A stretch of DNA of 64,000 bases, from NCBI RefSeq assembly GCF_002848345.1, contig NZ_CP025429.1, positions 186,001-250,000 on the forward strand, in the 5' to 3' direction. Shown one piece after another: positions 49,603-64,000 of this stretch. The position numbers were made by a program, and so were the translations under genes. A model generated the notes under the pieces. It was given only the letters and a program-made list of their open reading frames with translations. It was not told the origin of the DNA and made no database searches. How positions within the stretch are numbered: position 1 is the stretch's first letter; each line of letters starts with the position of its first letter. This DNA comes from Chromobacterium sp. ATCC 53434. GTDB lineage: Bacteria; Pseudomonadota; Gammaproteobacteria; Burkholderiales; Chromobacteriaceae.

Positions 49603-50724
49603 TTAATCCGGCAGTCAAATACCGTACAGAAAGCTCATGCCGCGTAGCGGATTTTTTCATGCCGGAAGTACGACCGGATTCTGGCCGGCTGCTTCTGCAA
49701 TGAGCGTAAATGGGACAGCACTTTCCCTTGAAGTTGACCGTCTGATCGAACCGGCTCACCTGCGCTCATTCTGGCCTTCAGGTCGCCGTTCAAGTATTCA
49801 TCCGGGTTCAGTTCCGGTGAGTAGCTGGGCAGGAAGAACAACTCAATCGCCTTCTTGTTCTCTTCCTCCTCCAACCATGCTTGCACCAGCTTGCTGTGAT
49901 GCACGCGCAAGTTGTCGAGGATCAAGAACACCTTCTTGCCGCCAGCATCACGGATCAGCCGCATCAGAAACTTGATCAGCACCCGGGCCGTCAAGGTCTC
50001 CCGGTACAGCATGAAGCGCATCTTGCCTTGGTTGGTAATGGCCGAAATCAAGTTGATGCGCGCTCTTTTCGATTGGGATAACACCAGAACTGGGGTTTGG
50101 CCTTTTGGGGCGTAGCCACGCGGAAAGTGCTCAACACTCGACACCGCCGATTCGTCGCCCCAGCTGATTTCAGCCATTTCCGCTTTGGCACGCGCGACGA
50201 TAGCCGGGTATTCCTCCTTGAGCCATTTCTCGACTGCTGCCGGTCGCTGCTCATAAGCGCGTTTGAGCGGGCGCTGCGGCGTAAAGCCCCAGCGGGCCAA
50301 GTACAGACGGACAGTACGGATCGGCAGATCGATCAGAAACATCTGCTTGATTACAGCCTTGACCGCCTGAGCACTCCACAGGGCAAACCTCAGCTTCATC
50401 TGGTCTGGCGTGCGATCCACGATGTCCTGCTTGATCCGGGCTTCCTGCGCCTCGGTCAGCCGACGGCCGGTGCCTTCGGCGCGACCGCGCTTCTGTTCTT
50501 TGAATCCCTGCGCACCTAGTGCTGCCTCACGCACCACCCAGGCGGAAATGGTGGGGCGGCGCAGCCCGAGTTCTTCGGCAATACTGGCTTGAGACCGGCC
50601 TCGCTTGTACATCCGGATAGCGGTACGCCTCAGCTGCTCACGGGCGGCCAGTTCAAGCTTGCGCACATCGATTTTTTCCATGCCGGAAGTATACAATCTG
50701 TACGGATTATTACTGCCGGATTAA
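49603..50724 (-). mobile_element. IS630-family insertion sequence, copy 1
   Basis: 1122 bp flanked by TA (49601-49602 and 50725-50726), the duplication typical of this family. Ends read TTAATCCGGCAGT and have CCGTACAG about 19 bases in on both sides, forming imperfect terminal repeats of ~27 bp. It contains one transposase gene and is identical over the coding region to copy 2 in opposite orientation. Confidence 0.9.
49635..50696 (-). CDS. IS630-family transposase
   Basis: A 353-residue DDE transposase. An N-terminal helix-turn-helix (about 15-55, RGRSQASIAEELGLRRPTIS) is followed by the catalytic core: Asp in ISWGDESAVSS, Asp in FLILDNLRVHHS and Glu in SYSPELNPDEYLNGDLK. The frame is intact, so the element may be active. 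Identical protein to the copy at 51175-52236. Confidence 0.93.
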   Translation of the reverse strand: MYTSGMEKIDVRKLELAAREQLRRTAIRMYKRGRSQASIAEELGLRRPTISAWVVREAALGAQGFKEQKRGRAEGTGRRLTEAQEARIKQDIVDRTPDQMKLRFALWSAQAVKAVIKQMFLIDLPIRTVRLYLARWGFTPQRPLKRAYEQRPAAVEKWLKEEYPAIVARAKAEMAEISWGDESAVSSVEHFPRGYAPKGQTPVLVLSQSKRARINLISAITNQGKMRFMLYRETLTARVLIKFLMRLIRDAGGKKVFLILDNLRVHHSKLVQAWLEEEENKKAIELFFLPSYSPELNPDEYLNGDLKARMSAGEPVRSDGQLQGKVLSHLRSLQKQPARIRSYFRHEKIRYAA

Positions 50725-51146: not shown

Positions 51147-52268
51147 TTAATTCGGCAGTAATAATCCGTACAGATTGTATACTTCCGGCATGGAAAAAAT
51201 CGATGTGCGCAAGCTTGAACTGGCCGCCCGTGAGCAGCTGAGGCGTACCGCTATCCGGATGTACAAGCGAGGCCGGTCTCAAGCCAGTATTGCCGAAGAA
51301 CTCGGGCTGCGCCGCCCCACCATTTCCGCCTGGGTGGTGCGTGAGGCAGCACTAGGTGCGCAGGGATTCAAAGAACAGAAGCGCGGTCGCGCCGAAGGCA
51401 CCGGCCGTCGGCTGACCGAGGCGCAGGAAGCCCGGATCAAGCAGGACATCGTGGATCGCACGCCAGACCAGATGAAGCTGAGGTTTGCCCTGTGGAGTGC
51501 TCAGGCGGTCAAGGCTGTAATCAAGCAGATGTTTCTGATCGATCTGCCGATCCGTACTGTCCGTCTGTACTTGGCCCGCTGGGGCTTTACGCCGCAGCGC
51601 CCGCTCAAACGCGCTTATGAGCAGCGACCGGCAGCAGTCGAGAAATGGCTCAAGGAGGAATACCCGGCTATCGTCGCGCGTGCCAAAGCGGAAATGGCTG
51701 AAATCAGCTGGGGCGACGAATCGGCGGTGTCGAGTGTTGAGCACTTTCCGCGTGGCTACGCCCCAAAAGGCCAAACCCCAGTTCTGGTGTTATCCCAATC
51801 GAAAAGAGCGCGCATCAACTTGATTTCGGCCATTACCAACCAAGGCAAGATGCGCTTCATGCTGTACCGGGAGACCTTGACGGCCCGGGTGCTGATCAAG
51901 TTTCTGATGCGGCTGATCCGTGATGCTGGCGGCAAGAAGGTGTTCTTGATCCTCGACAACTTGCGCGTGCATCACAGCAAGCTGGTGCAAGCATGGTTGG
52001 AGGAGGAAGAGAACAAGAAGGCGATTGAGTTGTTCTTCCTGCCCAGCTACTCACCGGAACTGAACCCGGATGAATACTTGAACGGCGACCTGAAGGCCAG
52101 AATGAGCGCAGGTGAGCCGGTTCGATCAGACGGTCAACTTCAAGGGAAAGTGCTGTCCCATTTACGCTCATTGCAGAAGCAGCCGGCCAGAATCCGGTCG
52201 TACTTCCGGCATGAAAAAATCCGCTACGCGGCATGAGCTTTCTGTACGGTATTTGACTGCCGGATTAA
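51147..52268 (+). mobile_element. IS630-family insertion sequence, copy 2
   Basis: 1122 bp flanked by TA (51145-51146 and 52269-52270). It differs from copy 1 in one visible base of the left terminal repeat (TTAATTCGG against TTAATCCGG). It is inverted relative to copy 1, 422 bp away, so recombination between them would flip the segment between. Confidence 0.9.
51175..52236 (+). CDS. IS630-family transposase
   Basis: Second copy of the 353-residue DDE transposase, with the same intact catalytic triad and helix-turn-helix as the minus-strand copy at 49635-50696. Identity of the two proteins implies a recent duplication or gene conversion. Confidence 0.93.
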   Translation: MYTSGMEKIDVRKLELAAREQLRRTAIRMYKRGRSQASIAEELGLRRPTISAWVVREAALGAQGFKEQKRGRAEGTGRRLTEAQEARIKQDIVDRTPDQMKLRFALWSAQAVKAVIKQMFLIDLPIRTVRLYLARWGFTPQRPLKRAYEQRPAAVEKWLKEEYPAIVARAKAEMAEISWGDESAVSSVEHFPRGYAPKGQTPVLVLSQSKRARINLISAITNQGKMRFMLYRETLTARVLIKFLMRLIRDAGGKKVFLILDNLRVHHSKLVQAWLEEEENKKAIELFFLPSYSPELNPDEYLNGDLKARMSAGEPVRSDGQLQGKVLSHLRSLQKQPARIRSYFRHEKIRYAA

Positions 52269-53205: not shown

Positions 53206-54762
53206 ATGACATTAAGACAGTCTGAGCAGTATATTTCTGATGAGATATTGAATGCGGCACATAAGGCAGCAACGATGGCAAGGTTGTCGCGAGAGATCGG
53301 CGGCAAGACTTGGAAAGAGCGAATTGAGTGCCGGTTTTACCCGAAGGTTGTCATATTCTTCGATGGCACAATGAATAATTACGATGTCAGCCCAGACAAC
53401 AAGTCCAATGTCGCGCGCCTATTTATGGCATCGCATGATGATCCGCAAAGAGATTTATTTAGAAGATATATCCCTGGTGTAGGGACGCCGTATGCGCCAA
53501 AAGATAATCAAGAAGTCGGGGAAGATAAGGGCGGGGCCATCGGGGCAGGATTTGGCAAGGGCGGCGACATGCGCTTGAAGGACGCCATGCTCTTCATCGA
53601 AAAAATGCTAGGTAAAAATTACACCACAGCGATTGCGCATATCAAAATGCTCCGGGTGGATGTGATCGGCTTCTCGCGTGGCGCGACGTTGGCGAGGGCC
53701 TTTGTCAATAAGCTGCTCAAAGAAAAATCCGGCGTTAATGGGAAAGGTCAGCTGATTTACAAGCTGGATTCATATGACATGACGGTGCCGCTGGAGGTTG
53801 GATTCGTTGGCTTGTTCGATACGGTGGCTTCGGTGGGCGGGCCTGCCTTGCATCGTGACTGGGCCAGCGATCTGCGTATTCCGAGCGAGGTGAAGCGTTG
53901 CGTGCATCTGGTAGCGGCGCACGAAGTGCGGCAAGCCTTCCCGTTGGATTCCATCGCCTACCAGGGGAGTTATCCAGAAAACAGCTTGGAAGTGATTTAC
54001 CCGGGCGTGCATTCCGACATTGGTGGCGGCTATTACCCGGATGAACAAGGGCGCAGCATCGAGTACACCAAGATACCGCTTAGAGAGATGTATCTGGAGG
54101 CGATAAAGGCGGGCGTTCCTTTGATGTCGCTGAAAGAGATGGAAGGAAACAATGTTGACAAAGAGTTCTCGATAGAAAACAAAGACAAAGTTGTTGGAAG
54201 TTATCATGCCTATCGAGAATATATTAAAGGCGATGCCTCTGATTTGGTGAGTGGCATCTGGGCGCATCGACCGGCATTTTTTAAATGGCGAAGCGAGATT
54301 GAGCGCAAGAAAGAATACACCAAGCTGCTTGCCGGTTTGGCAGATAGTGCGGATTGCGAGCAATGCTTGGCCGCGCCGGATAATAAAGTCCGGATAGAGC
54401 GAAACGAAAAACAATGGAAGGATCGGAAAATGAAAACGCCGACCGACCAGGGCAAAGAATTGATTACCGAGCAAAAGCGTCTTGCCAAGCAAATGAAATT
54501 CTTGGATGACCCATATGAGCGGGTTGGCAAAGAAACGGTTGCACGGAAACGGAATGAGTATGAAGAATTGATTTTTAATGCATGGAATAGCTCAGAGCTA
54601 TTGCCGGCGGCGGTGGATGAATTCTTTACCCACTATGTGCATGATTCTGTTGCAGCCTTCGATAGTTGGCCATGTGCGTTATATGATCCCCGGAAGATAT
54701 TCTTGCATAGGGATACCGTTCTGGCACGGCATGACGAATTGGATAACGGCCAAATCGTTTAA
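53206..54762 (+). CDS. T6SS phospholipase effector, Tle1-like (DUF2235)
   Basis: A 518-residue alpha/beta-hydrolase. VVIFFDGTMNNYD (48-60) opens the DUF2235 domain. The catalytic triad can be seen: Ser157 in VIGFSRGATLA, Asp205 in FVGLFDTVAS and His269 in YPGVHSDIGGGYY. Tle1 enzymes hydrolyse bacterial membrane phospholipids after delivery by a type VI secretion system. No signal peptide, as expected. No VgrG or other T6SS gene lies in the window, so delivery machinery must be elsewhere. GC content is below the chromosome's. ATG overlaps the DUF3304 stop region without a gap. Confidence 0.85.
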   Translation: MTLRQSEQYISDEILNAAHKAATMARLSREIGGKTWKERIECRFYPKVVIFFDGTMNNYDVSPDNKSNVARLFMASHDDPQRDLFRRYIPGVGTPYAPKDNQEVGEDKGGAIGAGFGKGGDMRLKDAMLFIEKMLGKNYTTAIAHIKMLRVDVIGFSRGATLARAFVNKLLKEKSGVNGKGQLIYKLDSYDMTVPLEVGFVGLFDTVASVGGPALHRDWASDLRIPSEVKRCVHLVAAHEVRQAFPLDSIAYQGSYPENSLEVIYPGVHSDIGGGYYPDEQGRSIEYTKIPLREMYLEAIKAGVPLMSLKEMEGNNVDKEFSIENKDKVVGSYHAYREYIKGDASDLVSGIWAHRPAFFKWRSEIERKKEYTKLLAGLADSADCEQCLAAPDNKVRIERNEKQWKDRKMKTPTDQGKELITEQKRLAKQMKFLDDPYERVGKETVARKRNEYEELIFNAWNSSELLPAAVDEFFTHYVHDSVAAFDSWPCALYDPRKIFLHRDTVLARHDELDNGQIV

Positions 54763-54919: not shown

Positions 54920-55351
54920 TCAGCCTTCCAACTTGGCGGGCACCGCATCAAAGCCCGGCAAGGGCTGGATGCTTAGCACCCGGTCGCCGTAGGCTGCCCG
55001 CGCCCACTTGGCGACCTGCTGGCCTGTTCTTGGCGGCGTGGCCATGTGCCAGACGCGGCGGCGGTCGTTGAGGTCGATGCGCCATAGCCAGACTTTCCCC
55101 AGCGCCACGCCGTCCCGCAACTGGAAGCTTTGGCAATGCCCAGCCAGGCCCAGGCTGGCGGGCTGTCGATGCTCGCCGCAGCGCTGGCCATCGCAAGCCC
55201 GGCAAGCGCGACAAAGCAAGGGCAAGCCCTCGGCAGCCGGGAGCAATGCCCCGGCCAGTTCGGCAGCCGTCGCGCGGTCTGCGGGCGCTGCCGTGGCTTC
55301 GGGTTGGGCCTGCGGCAATTCGGCGAACCAGTCAGCCAGATCAGGCAGCAT
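54920..55351 (-). CDS. Hypothetical protein of the satellite element (143 aa)
   Basis: Starts MLPDLADWF at 55351 and overlaps the primase-helicase stop by 11 bp, so it is translated with it. A Cys cluster (LLCRACRACDGQRCGEH) may bind zinc; the C-terminal half (VWLWRIDLNDRRRVWHM, VAKWARAAYGDRVLSI) is compact and aromatic. No family recognised. It is the last gene of the minus-strand replication operon. Confidence 0.6.
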   Translation of the reverse strand: MLPDLADWFAELPQAQPEATAAPADRATAAELAGALLPAAEGLPLLCRACRACDGQRCGEHRQPASLGLAGHCQSFQLRDGVALGKVWLWRIDLNDRRRVWHMATPPRTGQQVAKWARAAYGDRVLSIQPLPGFDAVPAKLEG

Positions 55352-58226
55352 CGTCGATTTCCGGCGCATTGTCGGCGAACAAAGCCGAAGTCACGCAATA
55401 CACCTTGGCCCGCCCGCTCTTGCTGTACTTCGCTTCTGGCGTGGTGCGCACTTGCAGCATATTGCCCGCTCCCTTGGTGGTTTCCAGCGCGCCGCGCGCC
55501 GCCAATAGCTTGCATACCCGGTTCGCGTCCACCCCGGCGCACACTTCCGCGCGGAAGCTTTCCGGCAGCACGTAATACTTGATCAAGCCGGATAGCTTGT
55601 CCTTGAGCCGGTAGCCGCAGCGGCTGATGGTCTTGGGCGCGTGGTCGTCAGGGTCGGGCGCGTGGCCGTCCTGTTCGTGCAAGATGCTTTCATTGGATAG
55701 CCGGGTGAAGCGCGCTTCGCCGTGCTGCTCGAAGAACAAGCGCACCTTGGCCAAGATGTCTTCATCCTCTCGATTGCCCGCCGTGCCGCGCATTTTCAGC
55801 CAGTCGGCAAAGCAAGCTTTAGCGGCCTGCCATGCCGTCCCCTTGGGCCAGCCAGTCACGCCCCAGGCGCTGGCCAGCTCGCCTGCAATCCCCACCAGGG
55901 CGAAGCGGGCGGCGGCGCGATGCGCTTGGCCATGGGCTTCGTTGGGCAAGACTTCGCTGTCAAAGCGCGCCAGCTGCTGGCGAATCAGACCGGCCAAGCC
56001 GTCTTTCTCCTGCACCAGCCGTTCCAGATAGGCGCGCGCGGCGCTGCCGTGCTGCTGGATCACGGTGGCCTTGATATGGTCGGATAGGGCTTGGCCGCCG
56101 TCCTTGTCATGCAGGGTATCGAACAAGCCTAAGCCCTGGCCCGCGTCGGCGGGAACCGCCAACATGCGGATTTCCATCCCGGCTTTCATTTGCTGCTTGG
56201 CCTCGGCCATGTGCGCCGCAAGGGTCTTTTCGCCGGAAGACAAAAACAGCACGCGCCATTCCGCCACCGCGCCCCGGCTGCCGCCCTTGTCATTGGCCCG
56301 GCTCTTGCCGCGTCCATTGCCCAGCATATAAACGGCCTCGCCAATAATGCGGGAGTCGCATTGATGGATTTCATCCAAGGTCAGCAGGCAATCGGAATAG
56401 GCTGCCGCGATGGACTCCAAAGCGTTGTCAGTCGCACGCCAGGTTTGCAGATAACCCGGCCCGCCGAACACGCTGGCGGCGGCTTGCAATAGCGTGGTTT
56501 TGCCTTGCGAGCTGTCGCCATAGAAGTGAAAGCCGCCCGACTCGCTGCCCAGGATGCCCAGCAGCGGCCCGGCGAAGGCGCAGGACACGGCGAAGGCTAG
56601 GCGGCTATTGCCGACGCAGTAGCGCGCCATATCGCTTTGCCAGCCTTCCAGGCTGCCCGCACATTGCATGGCCTCGCGCTGTTTCTGCGCCGCCTCGAAC
56701 ACCAGGCGTTCCCCTGCCTGGCCAAGCTGCACATCCGGCAACAAGAAGACATCGCCATGCCAGCCCAAGCGCGGCACGATGGTCGCGCGTTCGTCGCCAT
56801 CGTAGCGGCCCAGGTATTCCAACAGCCTTTGACGTGCCTTCGGGCCTGCGCCCAACAGCAGGCCGCGCGATAGCAAGCCCTTGATCACTTCCGCCCCTTC
56901 GCTGGATGCCAGCTGTTCGGATGGGATGTTCCATTCCTTGAGGTTGCCGTCTGGATCAGAGAAGCGCACCAGCAAGCCCCAGCTGCCCGCGTTCTTGTCG
57001 CGGGTGCGGGCCAGGATTTCCAGCTTGCTGCAAATCCATAGCGGCGTGTCCATGTCCTCGGTTTGGAAATAGACGCCGCGTTCCGACAGCTTGAAGGGAT
57101 TCCCCAGGGCAGACGGGGCCGGGTGCGGGGCGCTGGCCGCAGGCGCGGCGGCGATTTCACTTGCTTGGCTAGTCGATGTTGCGACGGTTTCGGCTGCTGG
57201 CTCCGCCTCCAGCAACAGACGCAGATGCGCCGCTGTCCAGCCACGCGCCAGGGCGTCGGCGGCATCGTCGCCGCTGTCCCATTGTCCGCCGTCCAGCAAG
57301 GCAGGGGCGTGCTCCGTTCCGCCAGGGCGGCAGGTTTCGAAGCGTTCGACGGGAATATGGCTGACAGAGGCCGCGCCGACTTTGGCCAGTTGCGCTGCGA
57401 CGGCGGTGGCCGCTTCCCAGCCCGGCGCGTCGTAGTCGCGCCAGATCAGGCAATGCCGCCCGGCCAGCGGGCGGAAATCGGCCTTGCTTACGGCTTCCGC
57501 GCCATTCATCCAGCACACGGCGACATGCTCCGGCAGCAGCTGCGCGGCGGCGTCGGCGGCTTTCTCACCCTCGCAGATCACAACCGGCGCGTCAGGCCGC
57601 GCGGCCAAGCGATCCAGACCATACAGCGGGCGCGGCGCGTTCAGGTTCTTCCAGCGCCAGGCAGTCTTGCCGCTGTCCGCGTCTTTCCATACGGAGAGCG
57701 GGAAATAGTCCTTGTTGCGGCCATTCTGGCCCGGCTCCAGCCGCACCACAAACACCAAGGGTTGCCCTGCGGCGTCGTTGTATCGCCAAAATTGCACCGG
57801 CTTGCCGGGATGATGCGGCTTGCTGCGCGGCATCTTGCCCATGAGGTTGGCGGGAATCGGCAATACCGCCTCGGCGGCGGGAACAGCTGCAGGCAGCTGC
57901 GCGGGGGCGCTGGCGGCGGGCGCTTCGCCATTGATGATGCCCAGCAAGCGGGCCAAGTCCTTGCAGGCTTCTCCTTGGCCGTAGGATTTGAGGTAAGCGA
58001 CTAGGGCAATCACGTCGCCGCCTTTGTCGCCGCTGGCGAAGTCCGCCCACACGCCCGTATTGACGTTGATGGAGAACGAGCCGTAACCCTCGTCGCTTCG
58101 AGCTGAATTGATCATCTGGATTTCGTGGTGGATCTGTTTCCAGTGGACTCCGGCCCAATCCAGCACACGGGGCAGCGCCGACAGCGAGGCGCGCTTGACT
58201 TCCTCAAAGGGTAATTTAGCCGCCAT
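55341..58226 (-). CDS. Satellite primase-helicase: TOPRIM plus DUF927/SF3-like ATPase
   Basis: A 961-residue replication protein. The N-terminal part (about 45-100, GVWADFASGDKGGDVIALV) resembles primase zinc-binding domains but lacks the cysteines. A TOPRIM-like domain follows (VVICEGEKAADAAAQLL, about 210-225, and HCLIWRDYDAPG). The DUF927 helicase domain has Walker A in FYGDSSQGKTTLLQ (about 570) and Walker B in LLTLDEIHQCDS (about 615). Such proteins replicate P4-like satellites and related mobile elements. ATG at 58226 follows the previous stop by two bases. Confidence 0.82.
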   Translation of the reverse strand: MAAKLPFEEVKRASLSALPRVLDWAGVHWKQIHHEIQMINSARSDEGYGSFSINVNTGVWADFASGDKGGDVIALVAYLKSYGQGEACKDLARLLGIINGEAPAASAPAQLPAAVPAAEAVLPIPANLMGKMPRSKPHHPGKPVQFWRYNDAAGQPLVFVVRLEPGQNGRNKDYFPLSVWKDADSGKTAWRWKNLNAPRPLYGLDRLAARPDAPVVICEGEKAADAAAQLLPEHVAVCWMNGAEAVSKADFRPLAGRHCLIWRDYDAPGWEAATAVAAQLAKVGAASVSHIPVERFETCRPGGTEHAPALLDGGQWDSGDDAADALARGWTAAHLRLLLEAEPAAETVATSTSQASEIAAAPAASAPHPAPSALGNPFKLSERGVYFQTEDMDTPLWICSKLEILARTRDKNAGSWGLLVRFSDPDGNLKEWNIPSEQLASSEGAEVIKGLLSRGLLLGAGPKARQRLLEYLGRYDGDERATIVPRLGWHGDVFLLPDVQLGQAGERLVFEAAQKQREAMQCAGSLEGWQSDMARYCVGNSRLAFAVSCAFAGPLLGILGSESGGFHFYGDSSQGKTTLLQAAASVFGGPGYLQTWRATDNALESIAAAYSDCLLTLDEIHQCDSRIIGEAVYMLGNGRGKSRANDKGGSRGAVAEWRVLFLSSGEKTLAAHMAEAKQQMKAGMEIRMLAVPADAGQGLGLFDTLHDKDGGQALSDHIKATVIQQHGSAARAYLERLVQEKDGLAGLIRQQLARFDSEVLPNEAHGQAHRAAARFALVGIAGELASAWGVTGWPKGTAWQAAKACFADWLKMRGTAGNREDEDILAKVRLFFEQHGEARFTRLSNESILHEQDGHAPDPDDHAPKTISRCGYRLKDKLSGLIKYYVLPESFRAEVCAGVDANRVCKLLAARGALETTKGAGNMLQVRTTPEAKYSKSGRAKVYCVTSALFADNAPEIDDAA

Positions 58227-58228
58227 CG

Positions 58229-58552
58229 TCAATACTCCCCCACTTGCGCCATATCGAGCGCCAAGGGCGCGCCTTCGGCGAGGTCGGCCACCAGCTCAGC
58301 CAGCAGGCCGGGTTGATGATCACGGGCGAACAGCGCCAGCGAATCGGCGATGACAGGCAGCAAGGGCGCGAGGAAACCGCACAAGGCGGCGCGGGCCATA
58401 TTGCTTTGCTGCTCGGCGGAATAGCCTTGCATGCCCTGCACGGTGGCCACGTAGGCCAGCAGTTCAAGCGCGTAGTCTCGGCCATCGTGATAAGCGGCCA
58501 CCGCGCCCGGCAAGGCACTGGAGAAGGGAAGGCATAAGGTGTTGTGGTACAT
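58229..58552 (-). CDS. Hypothetical protein (107 aa)
   Basis: An alpha-helical, acidic protein of no recognised family (YALELLAYVATVQGMQGYS, LLAELVADLAEGAPL). It precedes the primase-helicase by two bases and so belongs to that operon. A reading frame in another phase covers it, but the hydrophobic pattern of this one is more protein-like. Confidence 0.55.
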   Translation of the reverse strand: MYHNTLCLPFSSALPGAVAAYHDGRDYALELLAYVATVQGMQGYSAEQQSNMARAALCGFLAPLLPVIADSLALFARDHQPGLLAELVADLAEGAPLALDMAQVGEY

Positions 58553-59722: not shown

Positions 59723-60001
59723 GGTGATTGCCTCCTTAGTGGGTTTAGACCCGCTCCCCGCTGCTAAACGGGGGTGGCGAGCGCATGGCGGGGTTAGCAG
59801 ACCGGCACTAAGGAACCGGCAGCCCGAAGGCTCCCCACCACGGCCCGCCATGGAAGGCGCACGTGTGGCGTACTGCGGACGCAAAAAAACCGCTTTCGCG
59901 GCGTCATCCGCCTTAGTGTTCGGGCTGCTAAACCCGGTGCCGCTATTGAACAGCACGCCGGAATTATGGCCCGCCTGGCTCAAGGTGGCAAGTGTCATCA
60001 T
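59540..60001 (-). CDS. Ash/Icd-like overlapping reading frame (alternative long form)
   Basis: An open frame begins MMTLATLSQAGHNSGVL at 60001, overlapping the KilA-N stop, passes through the antisense RNA (MAGRGGEPSGCRFLSAGL) and runs without a stop into the 60-aa gene in the same frame. GHNSGVL and MAGRGG resemble the Ash/Icd-like proteins annotated across P4/P1 immunity regions. Whether it is translated is uncertain because the RNA structure alone could keep this frame open. Confidence 0.35.
   Translation of the reverse strand: MMTLATLSQAGHNSGVLFNSGTGFSSPNTKADDAAKAVFLRPQYATRAPSMAGRGGEPSGCRFLSAGLLTPPCARHPRLAAGSGSKPTKEAITMPKLSRALSRLFPAVRHPIAHFPLEAEAVNYARAYLAQTGRAVAVLPAAQGYAVMAGGAA
59783..59866 (-). 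ncRNA. C4-type antisense RNA of the immunity region
   Basis: On the minus strand a stem GGCGGG/CCCGCC (59844-59849 with 59787-59792) closes over a UUCG-capped hairpin (59821-59832) and a CCGG hairpin whose loop holds CCTTAGTG (59806-59813). CTGCTAAC (59793-59800) follows. Both 8-mers are complementary to CACTAAGG and GTTTAGCAG, which occur upstream (59911-59918, 59925-59933) and downstream (59734-59741, 59761-59769). This is the a'/b' versus a/b logic of P1/P7 C4 RNA and the seqA/B/C logic of P4. Confidence 0.72.
59883..59901 (-). terminator. Terminator in the immunity leader
   Basis: On the minus strand CCGC-GAAA-GCGG is followed by seven T. It lies between the upstream target motifs and the antisense RNA, where P4-type immunity terminates transcription early. 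Confidence 0.7.
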
Positions 60002-60672
60002 GCGGTCAGTCTCCTTGTGTCATTGGCGGGTAGGGCGAGGCGCTGGCGCTGCTCATTGGCAAACGTCAGCAGCGCGGCCTTGCGTTCATCGTAGCTTTTC
60101 CCCATGCCCAGCAGCACGGCGTCTTGACGCTCCAGCAGCTCCAGAAGGCGCAGCTCTGGCACACTTAGCACGTCCCGGTTGATGGGGGAAAACTGGCCAG
60201 AAAACACCCAATTGATCAGCCTGGCCTCATTGGCGTAGTGGTGTGCGGCGCTGTTCTTGCCGATGGCCTGGCGGTGCAAGTTCACCATGTCGCATAACAG
60301 CCGGTGATTGCTGGCAGCGGCCACGCGGGCGGCGCTCCAGTCGTCAGGCTTGGACTGTCCACGGATCAGGGCGTCAATCTGCATGTCGCACCAGACAGCA
60401 AAACGTGCATCCAGCCACTGAGCAAAGCGCACGGCCAGTTTCGGATGCATCCAGGTGCCGCCATTGTTGCCCCGCTTGGTCTTCAAAAGTGAGCCAGGCT
60501 CACATTTGAGCATGTCGGCCAGCGTGGCGATGTACTCCTGTGTGCCGTCTTGGTTGAGCCAGTCCACGGGGCGCTTGCCGAACTTCACCGCTGCTTCTGT
60601 GGCATTAAACCAAGCGTCTTGCGTGAATTGCATCGCCTGGCCGTTGAAATCGGCCTGAATCAACTTGGTCAT
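59998..60672 (-). CDS. KilA-N domain protein
   Basis: A 224-residue phage-type protein. The KilA-N domain (about 1-100) is shown by WFNATEAAVKFGKRPVDWL, LLKTKRGNNGGTWMHPKLA and FAQWLDARFAVWCDMQID. The C-terminal part is unrecognised. KilA-N proteins are DNA-binding and often act as antirepressors in phages with C4-type immunity, which fits the RNA just downstream. Overlaps the next upstream gene by four bases. Confidence 0.82.
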   Translation of the reverse strand: MTKLIQADFNGQAMQFTQDAWFNATEAAVKFGKRPVDWLNQDGTQEYIATLADMLKCEPGSLLKTKRGNNGGTWMHPKLAVRFAQWLDARFAVWCDMQIDALIRGQSKPDDWSAARVAAASNHRLLCDMVNLHRQAIGKNSAAHHYANEARLINWVFSGQFSPINRDVLSVPELRLLELLERQDAVLLGMGKSYDERKAALLTFANEQRQRLALPANDTRRLTA

Positions 60673-61186: not shown

Positions 61187-61402
61187 TCATGCGGTTTGCG
61201 CTTGGCGCGCGGCGGCGACTCGTTCCGCCAACCAACTTTCTACGTCCGTCGATAACCAGGCCACACAGCGCGGGGACAATTGAATCTGTCTTGGGAATTT
61301 CCCTTGCTGAATGAGCGCGTAAAGGCTGCTGCGGCTTAAGCCGGTGGCTTTGATTACGTCAGGAAGGCGAAGCATGCAGGCGGAGGGGTTCAGATTGATC
61401 AT
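61187..61402 (-). CDS. AlpA-family transcriptional regulator
   Basis: A 71-residue MerR-like helix-turn-helix protein: LRLPDVIKATGLSRSSLYAL, GKFPRQIQLSPRCVAWL and WLAERVAAAR match phage AlpA proteins. They activate excisionase or integrase genes of P4-like elements. Confidence 0.85.
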   Translation of the reverse strand: MINLNPSACMLRLPDVIKATGLSRSSLYALIQQGKFPRQIQLSPRCVAWLSTDVESWLAERVAAARQAQTA

Positions 61403-61426: not shown

Positions 61427-61633
61427 TTAAAGGGGGTGAACGGCACGCGCCGCGACGAAGGCTTGCAGATCGGAAAGGCGGTACATGCACTTGCGCCCAA
61501 TGCGGTAATACCGCAAGCCATAGCGCCCGGTGCTGGCCCATTCATTGAGCGTGTACGGCGACAGGCCCAGCCACTCGGCGGCCTCCGGCCTACTCATCAG
61601 GTGGTCTTTGCTATCAGGAACGGGAATGGACAT
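61427..61633 (-). CDS. Excisionase-like helix-turn-helix protein (68 aa)
   Basis: A HTH_17-type protein: MSRPEAAEWLGLSPYTLNEWA and YYRIGRKCMYRLSDLQAFV. The start MSIPVPD at 61633 follows GAGAAAG. Similar proteins act as excisionases or repressors. It lies 24 bp from the AlpA-like gene and just downstream (minus strand) of a stack of terminators. Confidence 0.78.
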   Translation of the reverse strand: MSIPVPDSKDHLMSRPEAAEWLGLSPYTLNEWASTGRYGLRYYRIGRKCMYRLSDLQAFVAARAVHPL

Positions 61634-61650
61634 AAGGCTTTCTCCAAATG

Positions 61651-61674
61651 AAAAAAGCCCGCACTGGGCGGGCT
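61651..61674 (-). terminator. Intrinsic terminator before the excisionase-like gene
   Basis: On the minus strand AGCCCGC-CCAGT-GCGGGCT is followed by T-run. It lies only 18 bp before the start codon at 61633, a place suited to attenuation. Confidence 0.78.
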
Positions 61675-61699: not shown

Positions 61700-61726
61700 A
61701 AAAAGCCCAAGGAAAAGCCTTGGGCT
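61700..61726 (-). terminator. Intrinsic terminator
   Basis: On the minus strand AGCCCAAGG-CTTTT-CCTTGGGCT followed by T-run. No promoter at the spacing seen in the tandem units lies upstream. Confidence 0.78.
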
Positions 61727-61780
61727 GTAACTGTCTAAGCATGTCCACGCCTGCGACGGCGCAAACATTCGAGCAAATGA

Positions 61781-61833
61781 AAAAAGCCCGAAGGGGTTAG
61801 CTTCGGGCTTGTGGGCGCTATTGTTTCTAGCGC
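61781..61833 (-). ncRNA. Predicted small RNA, tandem unit 1
   Basis: Promoter TTGACA (61863-61868) and CAAAAT (61840-61845) with 17-base spacing; terminator stem of 10 bp (61801-61810 with 61784-61793) and T-run. The 5' part holds hairpin GCGCTA-GAAACAA-TAGCGC. Predicted transcript 53 nt. Confidence 0.65.
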
Positions 61834-61888
61834 AGCTGAATTTTGCATAAACCGCGCATTGCTGTCAATGTCGCAGTTTTTCGGCGAT

Positions 61889-61941
61889 AAAAAAGCCCGA
61901 AGGGTTAGCTTCGGGCTTGTGGACGCTATTGTTTCTAGCGT
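61889..61941 (-). ncRNA. Predicted small RNA, tandem unit 2
   Basis: Promoter TTGACA (61972-61977) and CAGAAT (61948-61953), 18-base spacing; 10-bp terminator stem (61909-61918 with 61893-61902). The 5' hairpin is ACGCTA-GAAACAA-TAGCGT, a compensated G-C to A-T change relative to unit 1. Predicted transcript 53 nt. Confidence 0.65.
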
Positions 61942-61997
61942 AGCTGAATTCTGCATTAAGTCCGACATTGCTGTCAATGCCACAGTCTTTCGGCAAT

Positions 61998-62050
61998 AAA
62001 AACACCCGAAGGGTTAGTTTCGGGCTTGTGGGCGCTATTGTTTCAAGCGT
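61998..62050 (-). ncRNA. Predicted small RNA, tandem unit 3
   Basis: Promoter TTGACG (62080-62085) and CAAAAT (62057-62062), 17-base spacing. The terminator stem is imperfect (CCCGAA with TTCGGG, tail TGTTTTT), so termination may be weaker. The 5' loop GAAACAA is kept. Predicted transcript 53 nt. Confidence 0.58.
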
Positions 62051-62105
62051 AGCTGGATTTTGCATAAGTGTAAGATTGCCGTCAAGGGCGCAGTTTTTCG
62101 ACAAT

Positions 62106-62158
62106 AAAAAAGCCCGAAGGGGTTAACTTCGGGCTTGGGGCATTACTGCTGCGAGCGT
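62106..62158 (-). ncRNA. Predicted small RNA, tandem unit 4
   Basis: Promoter TTGACG (62189-62194) and TAGAAT (62165-62170), 18-base spacing, the best -10 of the first four; 10-bp terminator stem (62127-62136 with 62110-62119). The 5' region has diverged (GCTCGCAGCAGTA in place of GCTAGAAACAATA). Predicted transcript 53 nt. Confidence 0.65.
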
Positions 62159-62217
62159 AGCGAAATTCTACCTAAGTGCCGGATTTGCCGTCAACGCCTC
62201 ATTAGCCATGCGCAATG

Positions 62218-62270
62218 AAAAAGCCCGAAGAACTTGGCTTCGGGCTTATGGGCGCAATTTGGGTAGCTGC
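62218..62270 (-). ncRNA. Predicted small RNA, tandem unit 5
   Basis: Promoter TTGCTA (62300-62305) and TATACT (62277-62282), 17-base spacing; 10-bp terminator stem (62238-62247 with 62221-62230). The 5' part is the most diverged (CAGCTACCCAAATT). Predicted transcript 53 nt. This unit is at the upstream edge of the array. Confidence 0.65.
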
Positions 62271-62401
62271 AAAATAAGTATAGTTGACGCACGCCTCACT
62301 AGCAACAGGCATGCATTTAATTTTACAAGCGTTTGAATTTTAAAATAAATACAAAAAAACAAGATCATAACGCTGTTACGCTATTCGACTTGAATAGGCG
62401 C

Positions 62402-62431
62402 AAAAAAAAGCCCAGGCTTGTCTCCTGAGCT
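62402..62431 (-). terminator. Intrinsic terminator upstream of the array
   Basis: On the minus strand AGCTCAGG pairs with CCTGGGCT (one G-T pair) and is followed by eight T. A separate AAAGGTGG/CCACCTTT hairpin lies at about 62454-62475. Confidence 0.75.
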
Positions 62432-62573
62432 TTGATATCTTGCGGACGCGACAAAGGTGGCCTACGCCACCTTTTCTGAACGCCATGCGGCGGTTGTCCT
62501 GCAATTGTTTGGCCATTCTATGCAAAGATAACGTATCTTGCAATGCGTGGTCGTTGAGCCAATCCGTCAAAAT

Positions 62574-62600
62574 AAAAAAAGCCAGCATTGAGCTGGCTTT
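62574..62600 (-). terminator. Intrinsic terminator
   Basis: AAAGCCAGC pairs with GCTGGCTTT over a 5-base loop; the longer T-run is on the minus strand, with four T on the plus strand. Confidence 0.75.
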
Positions 62601-62679
62601 TAGGGCGCACCTGTGGCCGGTGACAATTCATGGTATTGGGTAATGCCAATACCGTCAAACGCGTTAATCAGAATAATTT

Positions 62680-63168
62680 ATGTCATTGATTTCAGAGAAA
62701 AATAACAAACCCATAAAGCGAAACGCTGTTACGGCCAAGAAGGTGGCAACGACTCCGGAAGACGGGGCAGCTCTAGCCAATCTGGCAGCAGCAAAGCTGG
62801 AACAAATGGACGGCTTGCATTGCCAAATCGATAACGTCAAGAACCTGCGCGATGCCGCACGCTTTGTGCTGGCCGCGCCTGGCCAAGCCCGAATTCCGAA
62901 ACCCTATGACGGCAGCGCCGATTGGTTGGCCTATATCAATCGAATGGTGAACCTCTCCCTGTCCGCTGAGCAAAGGCAAGCCGTCATGGCCGCGCTCAGG
63001 ACGCGGCGATCTAGAAAGCGCAGAAAGCTTGCTTCGCTGGAAATCAAAGGCGAAACGCTAGACCGGCTACAAAGCTGGCAAGCAAGCCATGGGCACGCAA
63101 GCCTTGATGCCGCCATTGCCGCGCTGATGGACATGGCGGAACCCTCTACAACTGATGCAACCAAGTGA
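62680..63168 (+). CDS. Putative DNA-binding regulator (162 aa)
   Basis: The only plus-strand gene in the right part of the element. The basic segment RTRRSRKRRKLASLEIKGE is followed by TLDRLQSWQASHGHASLDA, a pattern like ribbon-helix-helix or MatP-type DNA-binding tails. Lys-rich N-terminus. No family assigned with certainty. Being divergent from the early operon, it could be a repressor. Its end overlaps the next gene by 23 bp. Confidence 0.6.
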   Translation: MSLISEKNNKPIKRNAVTAKKVATTPEDGAALANLAAAKLEQMDGLHCQIDNVKNLRDAARFVLAAPGQARIPKPYDGSADWLAYINRMVNLSLSAEQRQAVMAALRTRRSRKRRKLASLEIKGETLDRLQSWQASHGHASLDAAIAALMDMAEPSTTDATK

Positions 63169-63617: not shown

Positions 63618-64000
63618 TTAGCCCGCCCGCTGGAAGTTGACCGGCACGACATTGCCGCCTTGCTGTTTGAGAACGTAGTTTGACCACCATTGCATCATTC
63701 GGCGGCGTTCTTCCATGTATTCAGCGCGGTTGTAGGCGGCGCGAACCCGGTTTCTTTCGACGTGGGCCAGTTGGCGCTCAATAGCGTCGGGATTGAACCC
63801 CTCTTCATTCAGGATGGTGGATGCTGTGGAGCGGAAGCCATGGACATCGGCCTTGCCCTTGAATCCCATACGATGCAATGCACGCCGGAGCGTTTCCGGC
63901 GACATCGGGCGGTTAGGGCTGTTGCGGTTGGGGAAGAGGTGTTCTCGTCCGCCGCTGATGGCTTGAAGCTCGCGCAGGATGGCAAGCGCGTGGTCTGAAA
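63618..64000 (-). CDS. int: P4-type tyrosine integrase (partial, 5' end outside window)
   Basis: The last 126 codons of a site-specific recombinase. The catalytic region shows HGFRSTASTILNEEG (His-x-x-Arg), QLAHVERNRVRAAYNRAEY with the second His and the nucleophilic Tyr. RPMSPETLRRALHRMGFKG is typical of P4/prophage integrases that use tRNA genes as attachment sites. The N-terminal part and att site lie beyond 64000. Confidence 0.9.
   Translation of the reverse strand, partial: SDHALAILRELQAISGGREHLFPNRNSPNRPMSPETLRRALHRMGFKGKADVHGFRSTASTILNEEGFNPDAIERQLAHVERNRVRAAYNRAEYMEERRRMMQWWSNYVLKQQGGNVVPVNFQRAG

Follow-up and report, generated by a model that had tools for sequence, protein, structure and literature searches.

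A tandem panel of phage-type late promoters ahead of alpA in a Chromobacterium phage satellite, very likely responsive to helper Q antiterminators

Introduction

What is the role of a tandem array of short transcription units, each with a promoter and a terminator of its own, that stands directly before the regulatory genes of a phage satellite? The question is raised by a locus of Chromobacterium sp. ATCC 53434 within a stretch of 64,000 nucleotides (contig NZ_CP025429.1, positions 186,001 to 250,000), here called the window, to which all coordinates refer unless a contig is named. A first-pass annotation had described five such units and proposed that they encode paralogous trans-acting RNAs with changing targets or, alternatively, form a stack of terminators restraining an early operon.

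In lambda and phage 21, RNA polymerase starts at the late promoter, makes an early pause at a -10-like element and is released at a nearby terminator unless the Q protein binds and rides along with it. In satellite P4, Ogr from a single type of helper (P2) activates the late promoters PLL and Psid at the initiation step. According to the parts of PMC6092414, PMC10803314 and PMC11773190 drawn on here, AlpA is needed and helper-induced in other satellites; in the same part of PMC10803314, how helpers activate the early regulon of Gram-negative satellites is an open question in 2024.

Here, we describe seven modules in this array, their match to modules that follow genes for Q-like proteins in phages, the remnant of a Q-like gene inside one of them, and the recurrence of such modules in five satellites.

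Methods

Q-like proteins were sorted into types: type I comprises the proteins of G026 (same genus as the genome of the window), G027 and G004, and type II that of G022 with its relatives; type III genes were found via module 6 of the array. The phage set consisted of 17 modules behind type I/II proteins, 14 of them from protein searches and three (G046, G055 and G033) added as R1 matches, and 4 behind type III proteins. Loci L017 and L024, with no clear module, and the weak type III relatives L106-L110 were left out before counting, and the near-identical viral and genomic copies L011/L014 and L012/L016 were counted once.

Three covariance models were trained on phage modules alone, with no satellite module used: R1 on 11 modules of type II, R2 on 3 of type I and R3 on 6 of type III, four of which also entered the pairwise test. 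Scans covered the entire 64 kb on both strands, R3 being run on the window and three satellite stretches together. For the pairwise test, the last 40 bases (the terminator) were removed, and 18 satellite modules (G043 excluded) were compared with the phage set alongside 1000 base-shuffled copies. An order-wide search for HTH_17 genes in 300 genomes gave 22 places, of which 19 were examined and three omitted.

Results

Seven promoter-leader-terminator modules on the minus strand

The five minus-strand repeat units of the first-pass annotation are real: their -35 elements start at 62305, 62194, 62085, 61977 and 61868, in steps of 111, 109, 108 and 109, and Tandem Repeats Finder returned a period of 109 with scores of 510 and 521. 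The extent given was too short, since two more modules lie upstream, at 62404-62543 and 62570-62658, so that seven modules run between 62658 and 61775, each with a sigma-70-type promoter that is followed by a short leader and then by an intrinsic terminator. The close succession of promoter and terminator was found both by site scans and by RNA models; between 61000 and 63000, the scans gave 7 promoter-like sites against 1.8 in shuffled sequence and 11 terminator-like sites against 3.6. From upstream to downstream, the modules are as follows, with E-values that are rough and to which the terminator contributes.

62570..62658, minus strand: module 7, late-promoter-like, type IIb class, missed in the first pass; R1 E 7.6e-7
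62404..62543, minus strand: module 6, type III class, leader of roughly 105 nt, missed in the first pass; R3 E 6e-18
62462..62494, minus strand: remnant inside module 6 of a phage type III Q-like gene (its final 10 codons with the stop)
62213..62305, minus strand: module 5 (unit 5 of the first pass), type IIa by its leader; R1 E 2.6e-8; 0 of 1000 shuffles equally good
62101..62194, minus strand: module 4, type I, nearest phage module that of G004; R2 E 6.8e-8; best pairwise match I_G004
61993..62085, minus strand: module 3, type I, nearest phage module that of G027; R2 E 4.5e-10; best pairwise match I_G027
61884..61977, minus strand: module 2, type I, nearest phage module that of G026; R2 E 3.2e-11; best pairwise match I_G026
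61775..61868, minus strand: module 1, type I; R2 E 7.5e-11; best pairwise match I_G027, score 30

Most of what had been read from the units stood up, and the original observation is sound and understated. Each unit does have a promoter, a short leader and a terminator. The 5' hairpin claimed for units 1 and 2 folds as described, its compensated pair being G-C in one unit, A-U in the other; four of its pairs are kept in unit 3, and it is not preserved in units 4 and 5. Conservation of the terminators needs qualifying for unit 3, where the terminator is weakened. A short terminated RNA is indeed predicted from every unit, its length of 53 nt depending on the assumed start site. The leader is variable in its 5' part, as reported, and the spacers between -35 and -10 vary too, matching different phages. 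Searches with the five units matched no family in Rfam and nothing in the phage and plasmid collections.

The satellite behind the array

The array directly precedes an operon with the following features, and an integrase gene lies on its other side.

63618..64000, minus strand: integrase gene, a 410-aa frame running past the window edge (PF00589 E 4.7e-11; full frame in L066)
61704..61726, minus strand: terminator-like hairpin after the array (terminator scan)
61656..61674, minus strand: terminator-like hairpin just before the HTH_17 gene (terminator scan)
61427..61651, minus strand: HTH_17 gene, the first behind the array (PF12728 E 6.8e-9)
61187..61402, minus strand: AlpA gene (PF05930 E 3.8e-18)
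59998..60672, minus strand: KilA-N gene of the satellite operon (PF04383 E 2.9e-19)
59770..59855, minus strand: C4 antisense RNA of the satellite (Rfam RF01695, 65.7 bits)
55341..58232, minus strand: DUF927 replication gene, primase/helicase-like (PF06048 E 4.4e-84)

A tRNA-Arg gene lies beyond the integrase gene, outside the window. Integrase, AlpA and replication gene beside a tRNA gene are the make-up of a Gram-negative satellite (PICI/P4-like), in agreement with the earlier proposal that the array is carried by a phage satellite facing helper phages; a similar gene make-up of Gram-negative phage satellites is described in the parts of PMC10111431 and PMC6092414 consulted. The DUF927 gene has no relative in the viral contigs. 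Near the integrase end, two satellites have a tRNA-Arg(CCT) gene (L066:4354-4428 and L067:9772-9846) and two others a tRNA-Leu(CAA) gene (L062:12450-12534 and L063:4324-4408), which are likely attachment sites.

Several other features were recorded around the satellite. Beside the array, a divergent gene of 162 aa on the plus strand (62680-63168) has no family match and is 39% identical to a frame in G049 over 76 residues. Two identical 353-aa transposase-like frames (49635-50696 and 51175-52236) stand in opposite orientation about 480 bases apart, and a 518-aa frame on the plus strand beside the satellite (53206-54762) presumably resembles DUF2235-type hydrolases. The idea that the C4 antisense RNA pairs with the units was rejected: matches of 9-10 nt only were found, some of them in terminator stems, and were treated as chance.

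Matching modules follow genes for Q-like proteins in phages

A DNA search of 61 genomes of the family with the five units matched seven genomes, namely the genome of the window itself, the sister satellite G021, G058, where the match is an ordinary terminator only, and phage-type loci in G026, G027, G004 and G022. At these four phage-type loci, a gene of ~160-220 codons is directly followed by the matching promoter, leader and terminator. An HNH endonuclease gene comes next in G026 and G027, whereas in G004 the next gene encodes a minor tail protein. In the type III phages, the end of the Q-like gene reaches into the promoter and leader.

From this position and from weak similarity, we infer that the proteins of types I-III are Q antiterminators. 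In G027, the upstream protein marginally matches the PHROG 'anti-termination protein Q-like' (E 0.0013), type I proteins score against PF06530 at E 0.078-0.11, below the cut-off, and two relatives carry the UniRef name 'Antitermination protein', database names being counted for type I. One Q-like protein of G026 has a 99% identical counterpart that the databases assign to Chromobacterium subtsugae. The Q-like frames of G046, G055 and G033 match the type I profile at 1e-8, 2.2e-8 and 1.1e-42, the G033 protein being itself part of that profile. No described antiterminator family, including those of Pfam and PHROGs, matched types II and III, no solved structure matched types I and II, and a comparison of the profiles of types I and II by hhalign gave no convincing link (probability 3.5%). 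Judged by their sequences and placement, types II and III are candidates for new Q families; the genes at L019:1498-2157 (type II) and L072:1037-1534 (type III), with their relatives, encode small phage proteins directly before late promoters.

In the genome of the window, no type I-III Q-like gene and no match to PF06530 were found, so a helper would have to come from outside or use an unrecognised Q.

A phage-like viral contig (L132:2172-3396) combines a type II Q-like gene (profile E 1.7e-44) with one module behind it (R1 E 2.2e-13), after which comes a gene that reads as an HTH_17-AlpA fusion, the same gene pair as behind the satellite arrays; either cassette could be the ancestor of the other.

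Phage-derived models recover the satellite modules

Although no satellite module had entered the models, all seven modules were found, with best E-values per module from 6e-18 to 7.6e-7. R1 detected modules 5 (2.6e-8), 7 (7.6e-7), 1 (1.5e-5), 2 (5.1e-5), 4 (5.3e-4) and 3 (7.3e-4) in the window, followed by a next match at 0.068. R2 detected modules 2, 1, 3 and 4 (3.2e-11, 7.5e-11, 4.5e-10 and 6.8e-8), followed by module 5 (0.044) and a site outside the array (0.084), and R3 detected module 6 at 6e-18, its next best match being at 0.0097.

Across the 61 family genomes, R1 gave 19 matches below 1e-5. Ten are training loci; eight of the other nine lie in satellite arrays (four in G049, two in G050, one in G021 and one in the genome of the window), and the ninth is behind a Q-like gene in G046. 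Weak R1 matches (E <=0.01) occur in 42 of the 61 genomes and many comprise the terminator end only; those used were restricted to matches below 1e-5 and sites checked twice. At E <=1e-4, R2 gave nine matches in the 61 genomes (three training loci, four in the array of the window and two in satellite G043), and R3 likewise nine (six training loci, one each in the genome of the window and in G021, and one in G039 close to a weak type III relative). The order-wide R1 search of 300 genomes at E <=1e-6 returned three matches, two in G050 and one behind a type II Q-like gene in G191, the best genome-wide match in the genome of the window (2.1e-6) being outside this limit.

Individual modules match particular phages, spacers included

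With the terminators removed, 12 of the 18 satellite modules beat all 1000 shuffles in comparison with the phage set. The other six were not significant, the number of equally good shuffles per 1000 being 18 for module 7, whose match without its terminator is weak, 202 for G021_b, 192 for G049_b, 81 for G049_d, 71 for G050_a and 61 for G050_b. Modules 2, 3 and 4 have three different best phages, G026, G027 and G004, respectively, and share with them stretches of 9-11 bases in the spacer between -35 and -10: ATGTCGGACTT, ATCTTACACTT and CGGCACTTA. In lambda and phage 21, it is within this spacer that the Q-binding element lies, according to the portion of PMC6606751 used here.

The spacer of module 1 is unlike those of all sampled phages, and that of module 5 does not contain the type II motif and resembles none of the sampled phages; to judge by sequence, these two modules may answer phages outside the sample or may be worn. 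Counted from an assumed start and with no shuffled control, positions +7 to +12 hold a -10-like hexamer (score >=4) in 12 of 18 satellite modules of type I/II and in 8 of 17 phage modules. The tetramer TGCG shortly after this hexamer occurs in 11/11 type II modules of R1 and 3/3 modules of R2, and is often, not always, kept in the satellite modules.

Module 6 aligns with four phage modules and contains, base for base (33/33), the end of the Q-like gene in L072, reading TAAWRSEKVA followed by a stop. This relic, in a genome in which no type III gene was found, fits capture of the module from a phage.

Related arrays in other satellites

Five satellites in three genera together hold 20 modules: seven here, three in G021, four in G049, four in G050 and two in G043. 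All 20 are on the strand leading to HTH_17. One module of G049 lies beyond a divergent gene, the contig of G050 ends just behind HTH_17, and the AlpA frame of G043 is apparently cut by a putative transposase. In the sequence stretches analysed for the five satellites, no type I or II Q-like frame was found, and module 6 carries only the end of a type III gene; the adjacent Q-like gene of the phage relatives is not seen here.

The sister satellite G021 is 96.5% and 89.9% identical to the window on the two sides of the array and has a single unit where the window has five. The first half of this unit is like module 5 and its terminator is like module 1, which reads as loss or gain by recombination between repeats.

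In the order-wide survey, at least two same-strand terminators stood upstream of HTH_17 at 2 of the 19 loci (the array of the window and G050), a count made with a terminator finder that missed some known G050 terminators. The other 17 loci, all outside the family, had none or one upstream terminator and no array, 4 of the 19 loci being cut by contig ends, which leaves the regions scanned there poorly placed. None of 14 HTH_17 loci on viral contigs had at least two upstream terminators, three of these having fewer than 900 bases of upstream sequence.

Discussion

We consider it very likely that the seven modules form a panel of phage-type late promoters, with leaders and terminators, that acts ahead of the HTH_17-AlpA gene pair as a Q-responsive OR gate. 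In the quiescent state, each promoter would fire and give a transcript of only about 50 nt, or of roughly 105 nt in module 6. Once a helper phage makes its Q antiterminator, this protein would bind the matching module between -35 and -10 and join the paused RNA polymerase, making it terminator-resistant. The polymerase would then pass its own terminator, the downstream modules and the two further terminators, and this read-through would switch on HTH_17, AlpA and the replication genes as the late genes of the helper are about to be made. Different modules would answer different helper Q proteins, hence the OR gate, and the short terminated RNAs would be by-products that may have a function.

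For the family as a whole, it seems probable that satellites maintain a shifting set of late promoters that were copied from various phages and are each a lock for the Q of a different helper, so that several unrelated helpers can trigger them and the number and class of modules change fast. The basis for fast change is a pair of satellites, 90-97% identical around the array, of which one has a single unit where the other has five.

The proposal of the first pass, a paralogous family of trans-acting small RNAs whose host or helper targets diverge, perhaps alongside a role in cis, gains from the short terminated RNA predicted for each unit and from StxS, a terminated late-promoter transcript of Shiga phages that reportedly acts as a small RNA. 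The variable parts, however, match class by class the late promoters and leaders behind Q-like genes of several phages. Because the untranscribed spacers also match particular phages, we set the small-RNA family aside; the same modules stand behind Q-like genes in phages, the units have no Rfam family, and the idea appears very unlikely. The alternative then offered, that terminators restrain the operon, came nearer but missed the likeness of the promoters to phage late promoters.

In its strict form, with the array as a terminator stack that insulates or attenuates the operon and its promoters as incidental, that alternative can point to the seven module terminators with two more before the operon and to the one unit that replaces five in the sister satellite. 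Against this, 20/20 satellite modules have a -10-like hexamer and a -35 hexamer that starts with TTGAC or TTGC (the best pick within range, scored with no control, one module having been cut two bases early), and the match to phages spans promoter and leader with the terminators removed; we regard the strict form as highly improbable. Many copies resembling several Q-binding promoters would also titrate Q, and satellites often interfere with their helpers, so the modules could be decoys that soak up helper Q or the late-promoter machinery rather than activate alpA; a decoy would not need to point at and directly precede HTH_17-AlpA, as the modules do in all five satellites, and we give this reading little credence.

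The arrangement that we favour, a panel of late promoters read by helper Q proteins, shares with lambda and phage 21 pR'-tR' and Q the promoter, a candidate early -10-like element (in many modules), the nearby terminator and, in the phage relatives, the place behind a Q-like gene. It differs in that the satellites have no adjacent Q gene, in that several classes stand in tandem before alpA rather than before lysis or packaging genes, and in that Q-like types II and III match none of the Q families described so far. With PLL and Psid of P4 it has in common a satellite promoter that senses a late-gene regulator of the helper, whereas here the proposed step is antitermination by Q, with several classes of helper. 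EcCICFT073 and EcCIMP1 likewise have an integrase, AlpA and a replication gene, and the helper turns on alpA (PMC6092414 and PMC11773190, in the parts consulted). Comparison of their alpA upstream regions with the late promoters of lambda and Kapi1, phi80 and the CFT073 prophage being left out, gave 116, 125, 153 and 162 of 200 base shuffles that were equally good. With no lambda/Kapi1-like late promoter found before alpA in these two satellites, the late-promoter arrangement is not general; for the lambda and Kapi1 versions, its extension to E. coli was rejected on these shuffle-level scores.

No earlier description of such an array was found in the open-access literature, subscription papers and preprints being outside the scope of that search. 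The locus points to two Q-like protein families unrecognised as such by Pfam and PHROGs. If the proposed mechanism is true, it would give a concrete answer, for one group, to how helpers activate Gram-negative satellites: the satellite reads the late-gene antiterminator of its helper. In addition, the array would be a naturally occurring multi-input switch that works by antitermination, and the helper range of a satellite would be guessable from its DNA.
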